DNA from: Limnothrix sp. CACIAM 69d
GTDB lineage: Bacteria; Cyanobacteriota; Cyanobacteriia; CACIAM-69d
Direction of reading: 5' to 3'
DNA: 35,352 nt
Assembly: GCA_001913845.2 (NCBI GenBank)
Contig: MKGP02000055.1
Location: 1-35,352, forward strand
The notes under the pieces are model-generated. The model worked only from the letters and a program-made list of their open reading frames with translations. It was not told where the DNA came from and did not search any database. The translations under genes and the position numbers were made by a program. How positions within the stretch are numbered: position 1 is the stretch's first letter; each line of letters starts with the position of its first letter. This document shows, in pieces, positions 21,881 through 32,160 of this stretch.

Positions 21881-22243
21881 ATGGCAGACCAGCCAAGCCA
21901 AGAGCCAGTGTTGCATCTGTTGGTGGGTGATGCGGAGGAACTGGACACAGCCCCCGTGGGGGGTGGTCGTGGCATTCCCACTAAGGAGCAGGTCAAGGAA
22001 AAGATGAAAGCATTCCTGAAGCCGGTGGAAGTGCCTGCTTCAGCAATTCGGCCGCATATGGAAGAGTTGCTGAAGGTGGTGGGAACGGTGTTTGCACAGG
22101 CTGATCAACAGCCTGGGTTGGCGCTCGATGAAATTGAATTATCGGTGGACATCAACGCTAAGGGTCAGGTGCGGATCTTGGGCAGCGGGGCCGAAGTGGG
22201 CAGCACGGGATCGATCAAGCTGAAGTTTAAGCGCGTGCCATAA
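21881..22243 (+). CDS. Pepco-like small protein preceding the caspase gene
   Basis: A 120-residue protein ending 2 nt before the caspase-FGE gene, so the two are surely cotranscribed. The N terminus (MADQPSQEPVLHLLVGDAEELDTAPVG) is a short strand and loop. The middle, VPASAIRPHMEELLKVVGTVFAQAD, is amphipathic helix. The end, LALDEIELSVDINAKGQVRILGSGAEVGSTGSIKLKF, has beta strands. This matches my memory of the Pepco domain, a small domain described as co-occurring with caspase or trypsin-like peptidases in predicted bacterial cell-death and immunity systems. The position next to a caspase supports that. It may regulate or be the first substrate of the caspase; this is an inference. GAGG lies about 10 nt before the ATG. 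Confidence 0.72.
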   Translation: MADQPSQEPVLHLLVGDAEELDTAPVGGGRGIPTKEQVKEKMKAFLKPVEVPASAIRPHMEELLKVVGTVFAQADQQPGLALDEIELSVDINAKGQVRILGSGAEVGSTGSIKLKFKRVP

Positions 22244-22245
22244 TC

Positions 22246-24336
22246 ATGGGCGGCAAGCATTACGCGATTGTTGTAGGAATCAATCCTTACTACAACAGTT
22301 ACATTCACAACCTTAACTATGCCGAACGCGATGCCCTAGAACTCTATGGGGCAATGTGTCGAGCAGGGTTTACTCAAGTCGATTTGATCACTCGTTTTTC
22401 GCGCCGACTAGAAGATGATCAAGTACGAGTAGGTTCACTTGTCCAATACATTGATGAAACCATTCCAAACCAGCGACGAAATCCAGAGGATATAATTTGG
22501 TTTTTCTTTGCAGGACATGGCAAGCGCACGCAAGATCCAAATAATCAAGATCGCTGGGAAGATTACTTGCTGCCCTACGATGCAGGTCTGTCTCCTGGGC
22601 AAACTTGGATTCAGGTGCGGTGGATTGTTGAAAAGTTAAAAGAAACTGGCTCCAAAAATATCATTCTCTGCTTGGATGCTTGTCGCCAAAGCAATGGGCG
22701 TAGTATTGGCGAGGAAGCGTTGCAAGGAAATTACGAGGGTGTCATTACCTTGTTTGCTTGCGATAAGCGTCAGGAATCTTTTGAAATTGAACATCCAGAT
22801 ATCAGGCATGGTGCATTTACCTATGCACTGCTTGAAGCGATTAATCAGAAGGCTTGTTATCCAACAATTCGCGAACTTAGCGAGTATTTGTCCAGAAGAG
22901 TGCCTGAAATCTGTCGGAAATATGAAAAGCCAGAGCAAACGCCTGTTTTTCAGGTTGAGGGGGATCTGCAATGGCAAGTACCGGCTTTGCCGAATGTTGA
23001 GCTAGCTGCTGATGCGGTGGACTTGACGGTTTTGGTGCAGCAGGCTAGGAGTGCTGAAAATGCGGCTTTTGATCTATTGCAAGATAAGTATGATGTGGAA
23101 AAGCTGGAAATTGCTAAACAGAAATGGTGGACTGTTTTAGAGAGTGATCCCACTCACGCTGAAGCCCGTGAAGAGATTGAAAAAATTATTAAACGGATTA
23201 CTCGTCGTGAATTAGATCAATTGCCAGGAAAAGAGGCTCAACCACAGGTTTATGGAGATCTCAATCTAGTTATTAATGCTCAGGTCGCGGATCTGTCAGG
23301 ACAACCCTCAATTCCGTTGGAGGTGGTGAGTCGGGCTGTGGAGCCGCCGCCAGCACCACCAAAGCCAAAGCCACAACCAAAACCGCAGCCACCTGATCCG
23401 TTTTCGGGATGGAGTTTGCGGGAATGGACGTTTGAAACAGTGCGGGTGGATCGCCGGGGTGAAATTGTTGAGCGACTGTCCAAAACGGCCAAGTCGCACT
23501 TTGTGGATTTGGGTGAAGGGGTGCAACTGGAACTGGTGGCAATTCCCGGCGGCGAGTTCCAAATGGGGTCGCCAAAGGAGGAGGAGAAGCGGGATTCTGA
23601 TGAAGGGCCGGTGCGGACTGTGACCGTGCCGCCGTTGTTGGTGAGTCGGTATCCGGTGACGGTGGAGCAATGGAGACGGGTAGCGGGGAGCTTCCCAGCG
23701 GTGCTGAACCCCAAGCTCAAAGCCGATCCCTCGCAGTGGAAGGACGCAAAAGGGCCAGTGGAGCAAGTGAACTGGTTCGATGCGATGGAATTTTGCGCGC
23801 GACTGTCGAAAGCGACGAATCGGCTGTATCGACTCCCTACAGAAGCAGAGTGGGAATATGCCTGCCGAGGGGGAACACAGACCCCATTTGCATTTGGAGA
23901 AACGCTGACCCCGGAGCTAGCGAACTATGACGGGAACTACACCTATGCCGATGGATCTAAAGGGGAATATCGGCAACACACGACCTCTGTGGGTCAATTT
24001 CCACCGAACGGATTTGGATTGCAGGATATGCACGGGAACGTTTGGGAATGGTGCTTGGATGATTGGTATGACAGTTATGAGAATGCGCCGAGTACATCAG
24101 AGGCGAGATTTCGGAATGATAATCATTCTCATGCCTTTAATTCAGCAATCAAACTTAACAATTACCAGGAGCGATTTTTTCAGGAAATGGTGAAGGTTAA
24201 CAACGAACAACCCAAGCTCCTGCGTGGTGGTTCTTGGTTCAGCAATCCGAGGATCTGCCGTTCTGCGAATCGCCGCTGGTGGGGGGCTGATAGCATCGGC
24301 CGCAACCTCGGCTTCCGGGTCTTTGTTTGGCCCTAG
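22246..24336 (+). CDS. caspase-FGE-sulfatase fusion; DGR target protein
   Basis: A 696-residue fusion. Residues 1 to about 245 are a caspase-like (metacaspase/orthocaspase-type) peptidase: KHYAIVVGINPY at the start, catalytic His in FFAGHG (H91) and catalytic Cys in LCLDACRQSN (C146). The middle (about 255-365) is a helical and linker region. A proline/lysine-rich hinge lies at about 367-385. Residues about 425-696 are a formylglycine-generating-enzyme-like domain with a C-type-lectin-like core: LVAIPGGEFQMGSP, RLPTEAEWEYACRGG, GLQDMHGNVWEWC. FGE folds are common DGR targets and act as ligand binders rather than enzymes. The last 39 residues (658-696) are the variable repeat. About 40 residues (617-657) separate WYDSYENAP from LLRGGSW, longer and more AT-rich than usual. 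The stop codon lies in the invariant part of the VR. Predicted to be an effector whose binding face is rewritten by the adjacent retroelement. Confidence 0.93.
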   Translation: MGGKHYAIVVGINPYYNSYIHNLNYAERDALELYGAMCRAGFTQVDLITRFSRRLEDDQVRVGSLVQYIDETIPNQRRNPEDIIWFFFAGHGKRTQDPNNQDRWEDYLLPYDAGLSPGQTWIQVRWIVEKLKETGSKNIILCLDACRQSNGRSIGEEALQGNYEGVITLFACDKRQESFEIEHPDIRHGAFTYALLEAINQKACYPTIRELSEYLSRRVPEICRKYEKPEQTPVFQVEGDLQWQVPALPNVELAADAVDLTVLVQQARSAENAAFDLLQDKYDVEKLEIAKQKWWTVLESDPTHAEAREEIEKIIKRITRRELDQLPGKEAQPQVYGDLNLVINAQVADLSGQPSIPLEVVSRAVEPPPAPPKPKPQPKPQPPDPFSGWSLREWTFETVRVDRRGEIVERLSKTAKSHFVDLGEGVQLELVAIPGGEFQMGSPKEEEKRDSDEGPVRTVTVPPLLVSRYPVTVEQWRRVAGSFPAVLNPKLKADPSQWKDAKGPVEQVNWFDAMEFCARLSKATNRLYRLPTEAEWEYACRGGTQTPFAFGETLTPELANYDGNYTYADGSKGEYRQHTTSVGQFPPNGFGLQDMHGNVWEWCLDDWYDSYENAPSTSEARFRNDNHSHAFNSAIKLNNYQERFFQEMVKVNNEQPKLLRGGSWFSNPRICRSANRRWWGADSIGRNLGFRVFVWP

Positions 24337-24340
24337 CCAG
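24217..24340 (+). repeat. DGR variable repeat (VR)
   Basis: These 124 bp align without gaps to the template repeat at 25948-26071 (offset 1731). The 14 differences are at VR 24238, 24242, 24254, 24274, 24275, 24277, 24280, 24283, 24293, 24298, 24299, 24301, 24302 and 24307. Each is A in the TR; non-A positions never differ. They change 11 residues of the caspase-FGE protein: 665, 666, 670, 677-680, 683, 685, 686 and 688. The last 31 bp (24310-24340) are identical in both and include the stop codon. The first non-A mismatch, G versus C, is at 24341. Confidence 0.97.
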
Positions 24341-24416
24341 GACTCTTTTCCCTTCTTCTCTTCTTTCCCTCTTTTCCCTTCTTTTTCCCCCGCGCTGTGC
24401 GCGGTCGATTTTTTTT
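24341..24416 (+). terminator. polypyrimidine tract and GC hairpin after the VR
   Basis: A C/T-only tract (about 24344-24390) leads into CCGCGC (24390-24395), loop TGT, and GCGCGG (24399-24404), then TCGA and a run of T. It is a good intrinsic terminator for the Pepco/caspase unit. In the Bordetella phage DGR a GC-rich hairpin just downstream of the VR stimulates retrohoming. This hairpin lies about 50 bp after the VR and could serve the same purpose, which is an inference. Confidence 0.75.
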
Positions 24417-24486: not shown

Positions 24487-24849
24487 ATGAACAATGAATC
24501 AGAGCTTCCCATCATTCAAAAAGTCTATGATTTCATTAAGTGGTACGTCCCCATTCTGAATCGATTACCGCGCGATCATCGCTTTACACTTGGTGAACGA
24601 ATTATTCAACAACTTTATGATGTTTTAGAAGGTTGTATTAATGCAAGATTTACGAAAAACAAACTAGACATTCTTCAAAATAGCAATCGAAAACTTAATA
24701 TTCTGCGCTATCAAACTCGTTTATTATTTGATTTTCAGCTCATTGATGCTAGGCGGTATGAATATGCTGCCAAACAAATTGATCAGATTGGAACTGACCT
24801 TCACTCTTGGTTAGACCAACAGCAGCGAAAATCACAGCATCCATCATGA
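24487..24849 (+). CDS. avd: DGR accessory variability determinant (Avd)
   Basis: A 120-residue, basic, all-helical protein of the bacterial four-helix-bundle Avd family, which forms a pentameric barrel that binds the reverse transcriptase and template RNA. The helices [68 protein letters not shown] and [23 protein letters not shown] fit the family well, with the typical R-FTLGERI start of helix 2. The stop codon overlaps the start of the reverse transcriptase (ATGA, 24846-24849), indicating translational coupling and stoichiometric production. The gene is more AT-rich than the target gene. Confidence 0.93.
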
Positions 24850-25913
24850 AGCGCCACGGTAATCTATGGAAGCAAGTTATTGATTTTGAAAATCTACTTT
24901 TGGCTTCTCGTAAAGCACAAAAAGGAAAACGATTTCGAGAAAACGTCCTGCAATTTAATTTCAATTTGGAACGCAACCTCATTGAGCTACAATCAGAACT
25001 GCTCTCATTGACCTATCAACCGGGAGCCTACACCACATTTGAAATTCGTGAACCTAAGCATCGTTTGATTTCGGCTGCTCCTTACCGAGATCGAATTGTA
25101 CATCACGCGCTTTGTAATATCATCAGTCCGATTTTTGACCGATCCTTTTTGAGTTGCTCCTATGCAAACCGCACAGGCTATGGCACTCATCTTGCTCTCA
25201 AGAAATTCATTCAGCTAGCGCGATCCCATCAATATATTCTGCAATGTGATATTCAAAAATATTTCCCGAGCATTGATCATGAAATTCTCAAAATGATGAT
25301 TCGTAATAAAATAAAATGCCGCGACACTAATTGGCTGATCAATTCAATTATTGATGCAAGTAATCCACAATTCTTGGTTCATGATTATTTTGAAGGTGAT
25401 CATCTGCTGACTCCCTTGCAGCGACGCAAAGGACTCCCCATCGGCAATCTTACTAGCCAACTATTTGCAAATCTCTATTTAAACAAATTTGATTACTTCG
25501 TTTTAGAGAACTTAAAGATATCAAACTATATTCGCTATTCAGATGATTTTGCATTATTTTCCAATTCACATTCTGTGCTTGAACAAGCCAGGAGAGAAAT
25601 TGAATCTTTTCTAGAAAAGATTCGCTTAAAGATTCATCCCATTAAAAGTCAACTGTTTGCAACCAGACAGGGAGCTAATTTCCTAGGCTTTCGTATTTTG
25701 CCTAATCAAATTCGAGTTCGATCGCACAGCCTAAAACGGGGCCGTCGTCGTTTGCGTCAGCTTCTGCAACAACTAGATCAGGGAACAGTTACTCAGAATG
25801 ATCTCTGTAGCTCCTTGCAAAGCTGGTTTGCACACCTCGATCACGCTGATTCTTGGCATCTTCGACAAAATATCTTAAAAGAAAACTTTCAAAATTATCC
25901 ACTTATCCTATAA
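24846..25913 (+). CDS. DGR reverse transcriptase
   Basis: A 355-residue retroelement polymerase that copies the TR RNA with adenine-specific errors. The catalytic triad is visible: [15 protein letters not shown] (D135) and [11 protein letters not shown] (Y231, D233, D234). The DGR hallmark is [10 protein letters not shown] (196-205), where other reverse transcriptases have QG..SP; the I/L-G-x-x-x-S-Q form is linked to low fidelity at [10 protein letters not shown] is the downstream motif of the thumb. I place the start at ATG 24846, overlapping the avd stop. The frame extends upstream to a TTG at 24807, which is unlikely. The gene ends 34 nt before the TR. Confidence 0.96.
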
Positions 25914-25947
25914 CTTTAGGATTTTGGAGAAGGGACAGGCCAATTCT

Positions 25948-26071
25948 CTCCTGCGTGGTGGTTCTTGGATCAACAATCCGAGGAACTGCCGTTCTGCGAA
26001 TCGCAACAGGAGGAGGGCTGATAACATCAACAACAACATCGGCTTCCGGGTCTTTGTTTGGCCCTAGCCAG
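25948..26071 (+). repeat. DGR template repeat (TR)
   Basis: A noncoding 124-bp copy of the VR, lying 34 nt after the reverse transcriptase stop. It contains 28 A residues, of which 14 are substituted in the VR: 25969, 25973, 25985, 26005, 26006, 26008, 26011, 26014, 26024, 26029, 26030, 26032, 26033 and 26038. In the target's frame it would read with many AAC codons (N at the sites of S666, I670, R677, S683, G685, R686), the codon that gives the widest diversity when A is randomised. No start codon or open frame makes the TR itself a gene. Confidence 0.97.
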
Positions 26072-26287
26072 CACTCTTGGCTGTCGAGCTGGCGTATGGG
26101 AATACGTCAGGAAATTTCTAAGAGTCCAGCACTGTTCCTGTGAGGTTGGTGACAACTTCCGAATATCAATCGAGACCCGGCGATTTAGTAGCTTGCCGAA
26201 CCGTCACCGGGTCATCTGTTCTGTTGCTGCTAGGCGATCGCCCTGTGGGAACCGGCCCCAATCACAGGCACGATCGCGGTCAACCGA
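26072..26287 (+). ncRNA. candidate 3' flank (spacer) of the DGR template RNA
   Basis: About 216 nt between the TR and the convergent antitoxin gene hold no gene. A hairpin forms at 26091-26108: GGCGTAT and ATACGTC around loop GGGA, with one G-U pair. ACTCTT right after the TR (26073-26078) is complementary to AAGAGT (26120-26125) and would enclose that hairpin. CCAGCACT is repeated at 26068 and 26126. In the Bordetella DGR a structured spacer downstream of the TR primes cDNA synthesis, so this segment is the likely counterpart. This is an inference from position and pairing. Confidence 0.5.
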
Positions 26288-26587
26288 TTAGGTCGGTGAT
26301 CGATCGCGATCGGCCACCTCCGCCAACGCCGCCTCGATCGCCGCTGGACTCACCCCCTGCCGCTGCAAACTCGCCACCAACAACGCCACCCGATCGTCCG
26401 CCAGCCGCTCCAGATCCAGCCGCAACCCCTGGCCCACATAGGCCCGCACCAAAGGCTGATAGCCCGAAAACCCCAACAGCGGTGCAATTCGCTTCAGATC
26501 CTCAACCACATCCTCCGGCATCCGAATCGTAATCGTCGTCATCGGGCGATCGCGCTTCAGCCGTTTCCGAAGAGTTTCAATACTCAT
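26288..26587 (-). CDS. ribbon-helix-helix antitoxin (BrnA/CopG-like)
   Basis: A 99-residue protein whose ITIRMPEDVVEDLKRIAPLLGFSGYQPLVRAYVGQGLR is a ribbon-helix-helix DNA-binding domain: a short beta strand with TIR, then two helices. The C-terminal tail (ALLVASLQRQGVSPAAIEAALAEVA) is helical and should bind the toxin. It is encoded directly after the toxin, and the frames overlap at ATGAGTATTGA, with ATG 26587 inside the toxin's last codons. GTG 26596 would add three residues. The pair normally represses its own promoter. It points toward the DGR template and converges on it. Confidence 0.82.
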   Translation of the reverse strand: MSIETLRKRLKRDRPMTTITIRMPEDVVEDLKRIAPLLGFSGYQPLVRAYVGQGLRLDLERLADDRVALLVASLQRQGVSPAAIEAALAEVADRDRSPT

Positions 26588-26873
26588 ATTGCTCACGCTC
26601 CTGCCGGGTTGCTTTGCGAGCCGAAATGATCCGAATCATGTCGTTTTCGCGCTCGATATAGACCACATACAACAAGTTCCAGCGCCGATCGAAGCCAAGC
26701 ACCGCTTCTCTGAATTCTTGATTGCGACTGGCATCCACCACCACAAGAAACGGATCAAAAAATGCTTCTGCTGCTTGCGGGAACGTAACGCCATCGTGCT
26801 TGACCGCGTTGGCTGCTGCCTTGTCTTGGTTCCAAACAAAGACAACGCCATTGAGTACGAAATGGACATCCAT
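26577..26873 (-). CDS. BrnT family toxin (ribonuclease)
   Basis: A toxin of about 98 residues with the BrnT pattern. FVWNQDKAAANAVKHDGVTFPQAAEAFFDPF matches the family's F.WD..KA..N..KHGVSFEEA...F.DP. It is followed by a strand pair, REAVLGFDRRWNLLYVVYIER, and IRIISARKATRQEREQYEY at the end, which is the usual R-I-IS-ARKA..E...Y. BrnT toxins are RelE-fold RNases neutralised by BrnA. All expected residues seem present, so it may be active. ATG 26873 (MDVHFVLNG) and ATG 26885 are both possible; 26873 fits relatives better. Confidence 0.88.
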   Translation of the reverse strand: MDVHFVLNGVVFVWNQDKAAANAVKHDGVTFPQAAEAFFDPFLVVVDASRNQEFREAVLGFDRRWNLLYVVYIERENDMIRIISARKATRQEREQYEY

Positions 26874-26925
26874 ATCGCACAGCATAATGAGAACGTATTT
26901 ACAGTGTCAATACAAATACTTAGCC

Positions 26926-31886: not shown

Positions 31887-32160
31887 TGGGTTTTGCTGCA
31901 ATGTTGGTGACTGCCAATAATTGTTTTGCGATCTATGTTTGTTCCAATTCGGGGACTCACCGAACGTCTTAGTGGCAGTAGACTGAGCGAGCGTTTCGGC
32001 GTTTTGTTAACTCAGAAACTTTAAACGGAGACAAGAGTACCCACCTGGTTTTTCCAGGTCGGAAGCTGAGGCAAGACGGCATTTGCGGTTAACCCAACTC
32101 CTCAGAATTTGCTTCAACCAATTGTTGATTAACCTCCCCGTCTGGAAAGAACGGGGATCC
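31887..32160 (+). ncRNA. candidate structured noncoding RNA
   Basis: Several stems can be drawn. TTCGG/CCGAA at 31948-31952 and 31960-31964. CTGAG/CTCAG at 31983-31987 and 32011-32015. ACCTGG/CCAGGT at 32043-32048 and 32054-32059 with a T5 loop. CTGAGG/CCTCAG at 32066-32071 and 32100-32105. CCCCGT/ACGGGG at 32136-32141 and 32151-32156. A long-range pair joins CAATAATTG (31915-31923) with CAATTGTTG (32119-32127), with one G-U. The segment follows a consensus -10 box. I cannot assign it to a family; 6S RNA is one possibility, and a long leader of the CHAT gene is another. Confidence 0.45.

Follow-up and report, generated by a model that had tools for sequence, protein, structure and literature searches.

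In BPP-1 the folded spacer brings in the RT-Avd complex, and one of its internal adenines serves as the priming site (PMC12875486). Here we ask whether the DNA behind the TR of a cyanobacterial DGR encodes an RNA of the same kind. We addressed this at a DGR of Limnothrix sp. CACIAM 69d, using a 35,352-nt stretch of its 4.57-Mb genome (contig MKGP02000055.1), hereafter the window. The whole DGR lies on the forward strand, in the order VR gene, Avd, RT, TR and spacer. The target gene (22246-24336) encodes caspase (Peptidase_C14, PF00656) and FGE-sulfatase (PF03781) domains and carries the VR (24217-24347) at its 3′ end. It is followed by Avd (24487-24849; NCBIfam NF033474, E = 1.4e-37; PF22296), the DGR reverse transcriptase (24849-25913; PF00078), whose identity to other cyanobacterial DGR RTs reaches about 65%, and the TR (25948-26078). 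A DGR-type RT, an Avd and an adenine-biased TR/VR repeat are thus all present. Of the 15 mismatches between TR and VR, 14 fall at template adenines and the lone non-adenine mismatch lies at the 3′ edge; the part copied into the VR extends to about 26071, and the sequence from 26072 onward is not transferred. An earlier note, made from the letters of this DNA, had proposed that a structured noncoding segment running from 26072 to 26287 folds with the TR RNA and primes its own cDNA, as in Bordetella.

The surroundings of the DGR contain several other features. On the minus strand, convergent to the DGR, the region 26288-26885 holds a BrnT-type toxin gene (PF04365), with a putative antitoxin ORF between the toxin gene and the DGR. 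On the other side, a small gene with a Pepco domain (PF24393; 21881-22243) adjoins the caspase/FGE target gene, which suggests that the two form a conflict-system operon; within the Pepco gene, a 26-nt stretch (22025-22050) is 77% identical to part of the VR. A 6S RNA is located at 31890-32095 (RF00013, 79.7 bits).

Folding of the window sequence by itself gave no indication of unusual structure. Positions 26060-26150 fold with −31.2 kcal/mol (z = −1.14), a value equalled by 25 of 200 shuffled sequences, and the longer segment 25914-26290 likewise did no better than chance (z = −1.55). Rfam 15 offered no family above its gathering score in the spacer region, where a low-stringency search returned one chance hit only. 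Since the single-sequence fold was not better than shuffles, comparison with related loci was needed. A peptide-pattern scan of genome contigs with the window RT alone produced no match, and an RT alignment was used in its place. Of 388 genomes from the same class, 64 proved in RT searches to contain related DGRs. Most of these yielded a TR, recognized by its adenine-biased repeat and usually positioned immediately 3′ of the RT gene. The sequence 3′ of the TR is strikingly conserved among these DGRs. Fifty-one loci were aligned, and covariation between columns was scored without an assumed structure.

The top-scoring covarying column pairs almost all agree with a single set of helices, comprising a helix between the TR 3′ end and the spacer (P1), an inner 2-bp helix, a GNRA hairpin (P2) and two further stems (P3 and P4), with RNAalifold concurring for P2-P4. 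Across the 51 loci, the 38 pairs of this set are paired in 95.7% of cells, compared with 78.7% after shuffling and 30-43% with slid partners; 34 of the 38 show changes on both sides, and cells with both-side changes number 361 against 95 in shuffled data. The covariation across related DGRs that the earlier note had proposed to look for is therefore strong. In the window, P1 joins 26073-26080, the TR 3′ end or IMH*, to 26118-26125 in the spacer through eight pairs including one G·U. It contains the ACTCTT/AAGAGT complementarity already noticed, and its 5′ strand lies partly within the TR/VR repeat. Pairing with the TR 3′ end is itself covariation-supported, with 94.9% of cells paired in this helix and five of seven pairs changed on both sides. 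P2 occupies 26089-26110, and eight of its nine pairs show changes on both sides. The hairpin previously described as 7 bp at 26091-26108 is real, but it represents the inner 7 bp plus loop of this 9-bp stem (26089-26097/26102-26110), which closes on a GGGA loop. Covariation also supports P3 (26142-26159; stem 26142-26148/26153-26159, GUGA loop) and the long stem P4 (26173-26214; 26173-26185/26202-26214), which forms the 3′ end of the conserved element. Judged by this pattern of substitution, the spacer encodes a conserved structured RNA that extends from the 3′ end of the TR to about 26216, so that positions 26217-26287, formerly counted as part of the noncoding element, fall outside it. The two copies of CCAGCACT (26068-26075 and 26126-26133) are indeed present, but relatives have CCAGACC at the second site. 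Because only CCAG is conserved, the 8-nt repeat appears incidental, and it was rejected as a functional element.

A hairpin of this kind might act as DNA rather than RNA. DGR targets are known to carry a hairpin or cruciform with a stem of 7-10 bp and a GRNA loop, located 4-34 bp after the repeat (PMC3240598), and P2, a GNRA-looped hairpin near a repeat, matches the published element in stem length, loop and distance. The published element, however, follows the VR, whereas P2 follows the TR, and P2 is embedded in a larger RNA that also has further covarying helices and conserved blocks of unpaired sequence, which points to behavior as RNA. Cyanobacterial VRs moreover carry downstream hairpins of their own: 38 of 76 VRs are followed by a stem of at least 6 bp, mostly GC-rich, where 3.5 would be expected. 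Identification of P2 as a target-site DNA hairpin is consequently extremely unlikely. In the window, the VR IMH is directly followed by a long polypyrimidine tract and then a GC hairpin with a T-run (24345-24404). This hairpin, CCGCGC-TGT-GCGCGG (24390-24404, forward strand), has a 6-bp GC-rich stem and could be a target-side stem-loop or a terminator; hairpins downstream of VRs are likely a target-side element.

A covariance model, R1, was built from the 51-locus alignment to define the distribution of the RNA. It finds one match in the window, at 26070-26216 (110.6 bits), directly 3′ of the TR, and this copy, adjoining the TR, is also the only one in the whole genome. R1 further matches about 66 of 80 additional RT-containing DGR loci, some of whose genomes overlap its training set, mostly within a few hundred nucleotides of the RT gene. 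Records labelled as Chloroflexi, Acidobacteria, Nitrospirae, Verrucomicrobia, Poribacteria and Proteobacteria have no such overlap, although many of the non-cyanobacterial matching records are MAGs, in which contamination is possible. A DGR on a Chlorobi plasmid is also matched (E = 5.8e-7). Relative to the consensus, the inner loop of the window copy (26081-26117) has neither CAGA nor GGCGURC, and the inner 2-bp helix is gone, positions 26084/26115 forming a U·U that is the sole break of that pair among the 51 loci. As these consensus features are missing, this copy may be weakened, or less active than those of its relatives.

The element also includes a partner upstream of the TR that the earlier description had missed. 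A leader segment at 25931-25940 pairs with 26129-26139, with A26131 bulged, in a helix termed P0 (both strands on the forward strand; duplex −15.0 kcal/mol). The leader motif is of the GGGRCAGG type, and its spacer partner lies directly 3′ of a conserved GUCCA. Compensating variants occur among relatives (GGGCTCGGTC/GACCGAGCCC, GGTATAGATC/GATCTGTGCC and GGTGCAAATC/GATTTGTGCC). The summed pairing score over the 51 loci is 372, compared with 330.9 (sd 4.2) for permuted leader and spacer partners, the best fit being picked per locus in real and permuted data alike. A corresponding leader:spacer helix, mostly in one register, is found in BPP-1-like phages (307.5 versus 293.7, sd 2.8). Between P1 and P0 lies A26128, which is invariant in 51 of 51 loci. 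By its position this adenine is the counterpart of BPP-1 spacer A56, and it is predicted to be the priming nucleotide.

The limits of TR-to-VR transfer bear directly on this prediction. In 77 TR/VR comparisons, non-adenine mismatches amount to no more than 7% at well-sampled positions up to −2 and rise to 91% at −1, the base before P1, from which point onward TR sequence is not transferred to the VR. Identity between TR and VR thus ends exactly at the 5′ edge of P1, as expected if cDNA is primed by the spacer, since such cDNA must begin there. Covariation, this boundary and the anatomy shared with BPP-1-like phages all favor the BPP-1-like folding of spacer with TR that had originally been proposed. 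Taken with the BPP-1 analogy, they make us confident that the region is the DGR template-RNA spacer (Sp), which would fold with the leader and the TR end and prime cDNA synthesis. The structure could instead do no more than stabilize the 3′ end of the RT-TR transcript or terminate its transcription, given that it comes last in the DGR operon, at the 3′ end, and closes with the long stem P4. Such a role is very improbable: no T-run follows P4, a scan of 26070-26287 revealed no terminator-like site, and a terminator would need neither invariant unpaired blocks such as GUCCA nor pairing with the TR end and a leader about 190 nt upstream, nor would it coincide with the TR/VR boundary.

The priming reading can be set out as a sequence of steps. 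In the transcript that this copy would yield, the leader (through P0) and the TR 3′ end (through P1) would pair with adjoining parts of the spacer, holding the TR as a closed loop, with A26128 next to the template where the two helices meet. If BPP-1 is a guide, the Avd-RT complex would bind the folded RNA, and cDNA would start from A26128, with the TR copied from just 5′ of P1. The same spacer strand, being complementary to the VR IMH, may then help to pair the spacer-linked cDNA with the target. On the combined strength of sequence comparison and the BPP-1 parallel, the spacer very probably initiates error-prone template copying.

BPP-1 offers the closest functional comparison. Its sequence allows spacer AGGUGGU to form a stem with AUCACCU at the TR end, and C-A comes next. 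The adenine 3′ of this stem is spacer A56, the priming site, with cDNA starting at TR G117. As in the window, the BPP-1 Sp lies directly 3′ of the TR, a hairpin is enclosed by pairing between the TR 3′ end and the spacer, and an adenine stands just 3′ of the TR:spacer stem. The BPP-1 leader AGGGCAGG can likewise pair with spacer UCUGUCCU, with covariation seen in phage relatives. The two systems differ in that the order here is VR-avd-RT-TR-Sp, the leader derives from the end of the RT gene and not from avd, and neither the length nor the sequence of P2, P3 and P4 is the same. The best local score of R1 on the BPP-1 spacer, 3.2 bits, is below significance, so the equivalence rests on shared anatomy. 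Other cyanobacterial DGRs, including those of Nostoc, Nodularia and Trichodesmium, resemble the window DGR in having FGE-sulfatase-type targets and a TR near the RT, and strongly expressed TR RNA has been reported for them (PMC7517822; PMC12691664; PMC3610870). In Nostoc punctiforme the TR RNA reaches high levels of expression (PMC12691664), and the Nodularia spumigena CCY9414 genome is reported to contain 70 near-identical copies of a DGR1 non-coding RNA element (PMC3610870). Text searches of these three papers turned up no description of a spacer structure. The RNA described here is a genuine DGR spacer RNA of known kind that belongs to no Rfam family.

The spacer strand of P1 has a second possible partner. 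The core of the VR IMH, GGACTCTT (24340-24347, forward strand), forms eight contiguous Watson-Crick pairs with spacer 26120-26127, and protein coding does not explain the match because the core lies past the stop codon. At the priming end this strand fits the VR better than the TR. Among 104 distinct TR/VR/spacer sets, 99 VRs but 8 TRs pair with the spacer at position −1, and core positions −2 to +2 are all Watson-Crick in 61 VRs versus one TR; part of this agreement is inherited, so the counts do not represent independent events. Non-consensus spacer cores occur in 17 sets, and in the 15 that are in proper register the VR fits its own spacer better than it fits the consensus. Three of these 15, namely L039 and L055, which come from one genome, and L229, have a VR that changed along with the spacer and an unchanged TR. 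Two loci, L061 and L064, are exceptions to the TR mismatch rule, their TRs having a G at −1 that pairs with the spacer. In BPP-1 the spacer is perfectly antisense to the VR IMH over 9 nt (AGGUGGUCA/TGACCACCT), and in BPP-1-like loci (36 distinct sets) complementarity to the VR extends over about 7 nt, with the TR mismatched at one particular position in 30 of the sets. A further 18 mixed loci, mostly distant DGRs for which the register is not known, gave matches of mostly 4-6 nt and no excess over permuted pairs; the claim is therefore limited to R1-type and BPP-1-like groups.

Such complementarity suggests that the spacer might also guide the DGR to its target, the spacer-cDNA chimera then being one unbroken antisense strand for the VR but not for the TR, a proposal to which we give an even chance. 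One-way transfer from TR to VR would follow, because the spacer is antisense to the IMH but has a conserved mismatch to IMH*. It is also conceivable, if rather unlikely, that the match arises as a by-product: repair would copy the RNA primer of the cDNA into the VR, so that the spacer leaves the IMH as its footprint and the IMH is no address; this would concern only the spacer:VR match and leave the priming reading as it stands. A footprint would account for the VR matching its own spacer core and following its variants, and for a match contiguous with the cDNA start, yet VR complementarity fades within 5-9 nt and homing in BPP-1 requires an IMH at the target (PMC3240598). Returning to the guide proposal, a 2026 study in E. 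coli found homing favored when the lagging-strand template is the strand complementary to the cDNA, and it refers to a proposal of an Okazaki-like RNA-cDNA intermediate; a spacer antisense to the IMH, as the RNA end, would fit such an intermediate.

With its fold and boundary supported by covariation (25931-26216 here), the template RNA of cyanobacterial-type DGRs can be sought with a covariance model, and its priming site can be tested. The spacer:IMH complementarity is possibly a new insight into IMH/IMH* directionality. If the guide proposal is true, it would provide a base-pairing account of directionality for the DGRs of cyanobacteria, other bacteria and BPP-1-like phages. If the pairing is functional, it would answer the old question of what separates IMH from IMH* and would supply a rule for retargeting DGRs, namely to match the 3′ edge of the target to the spacer.
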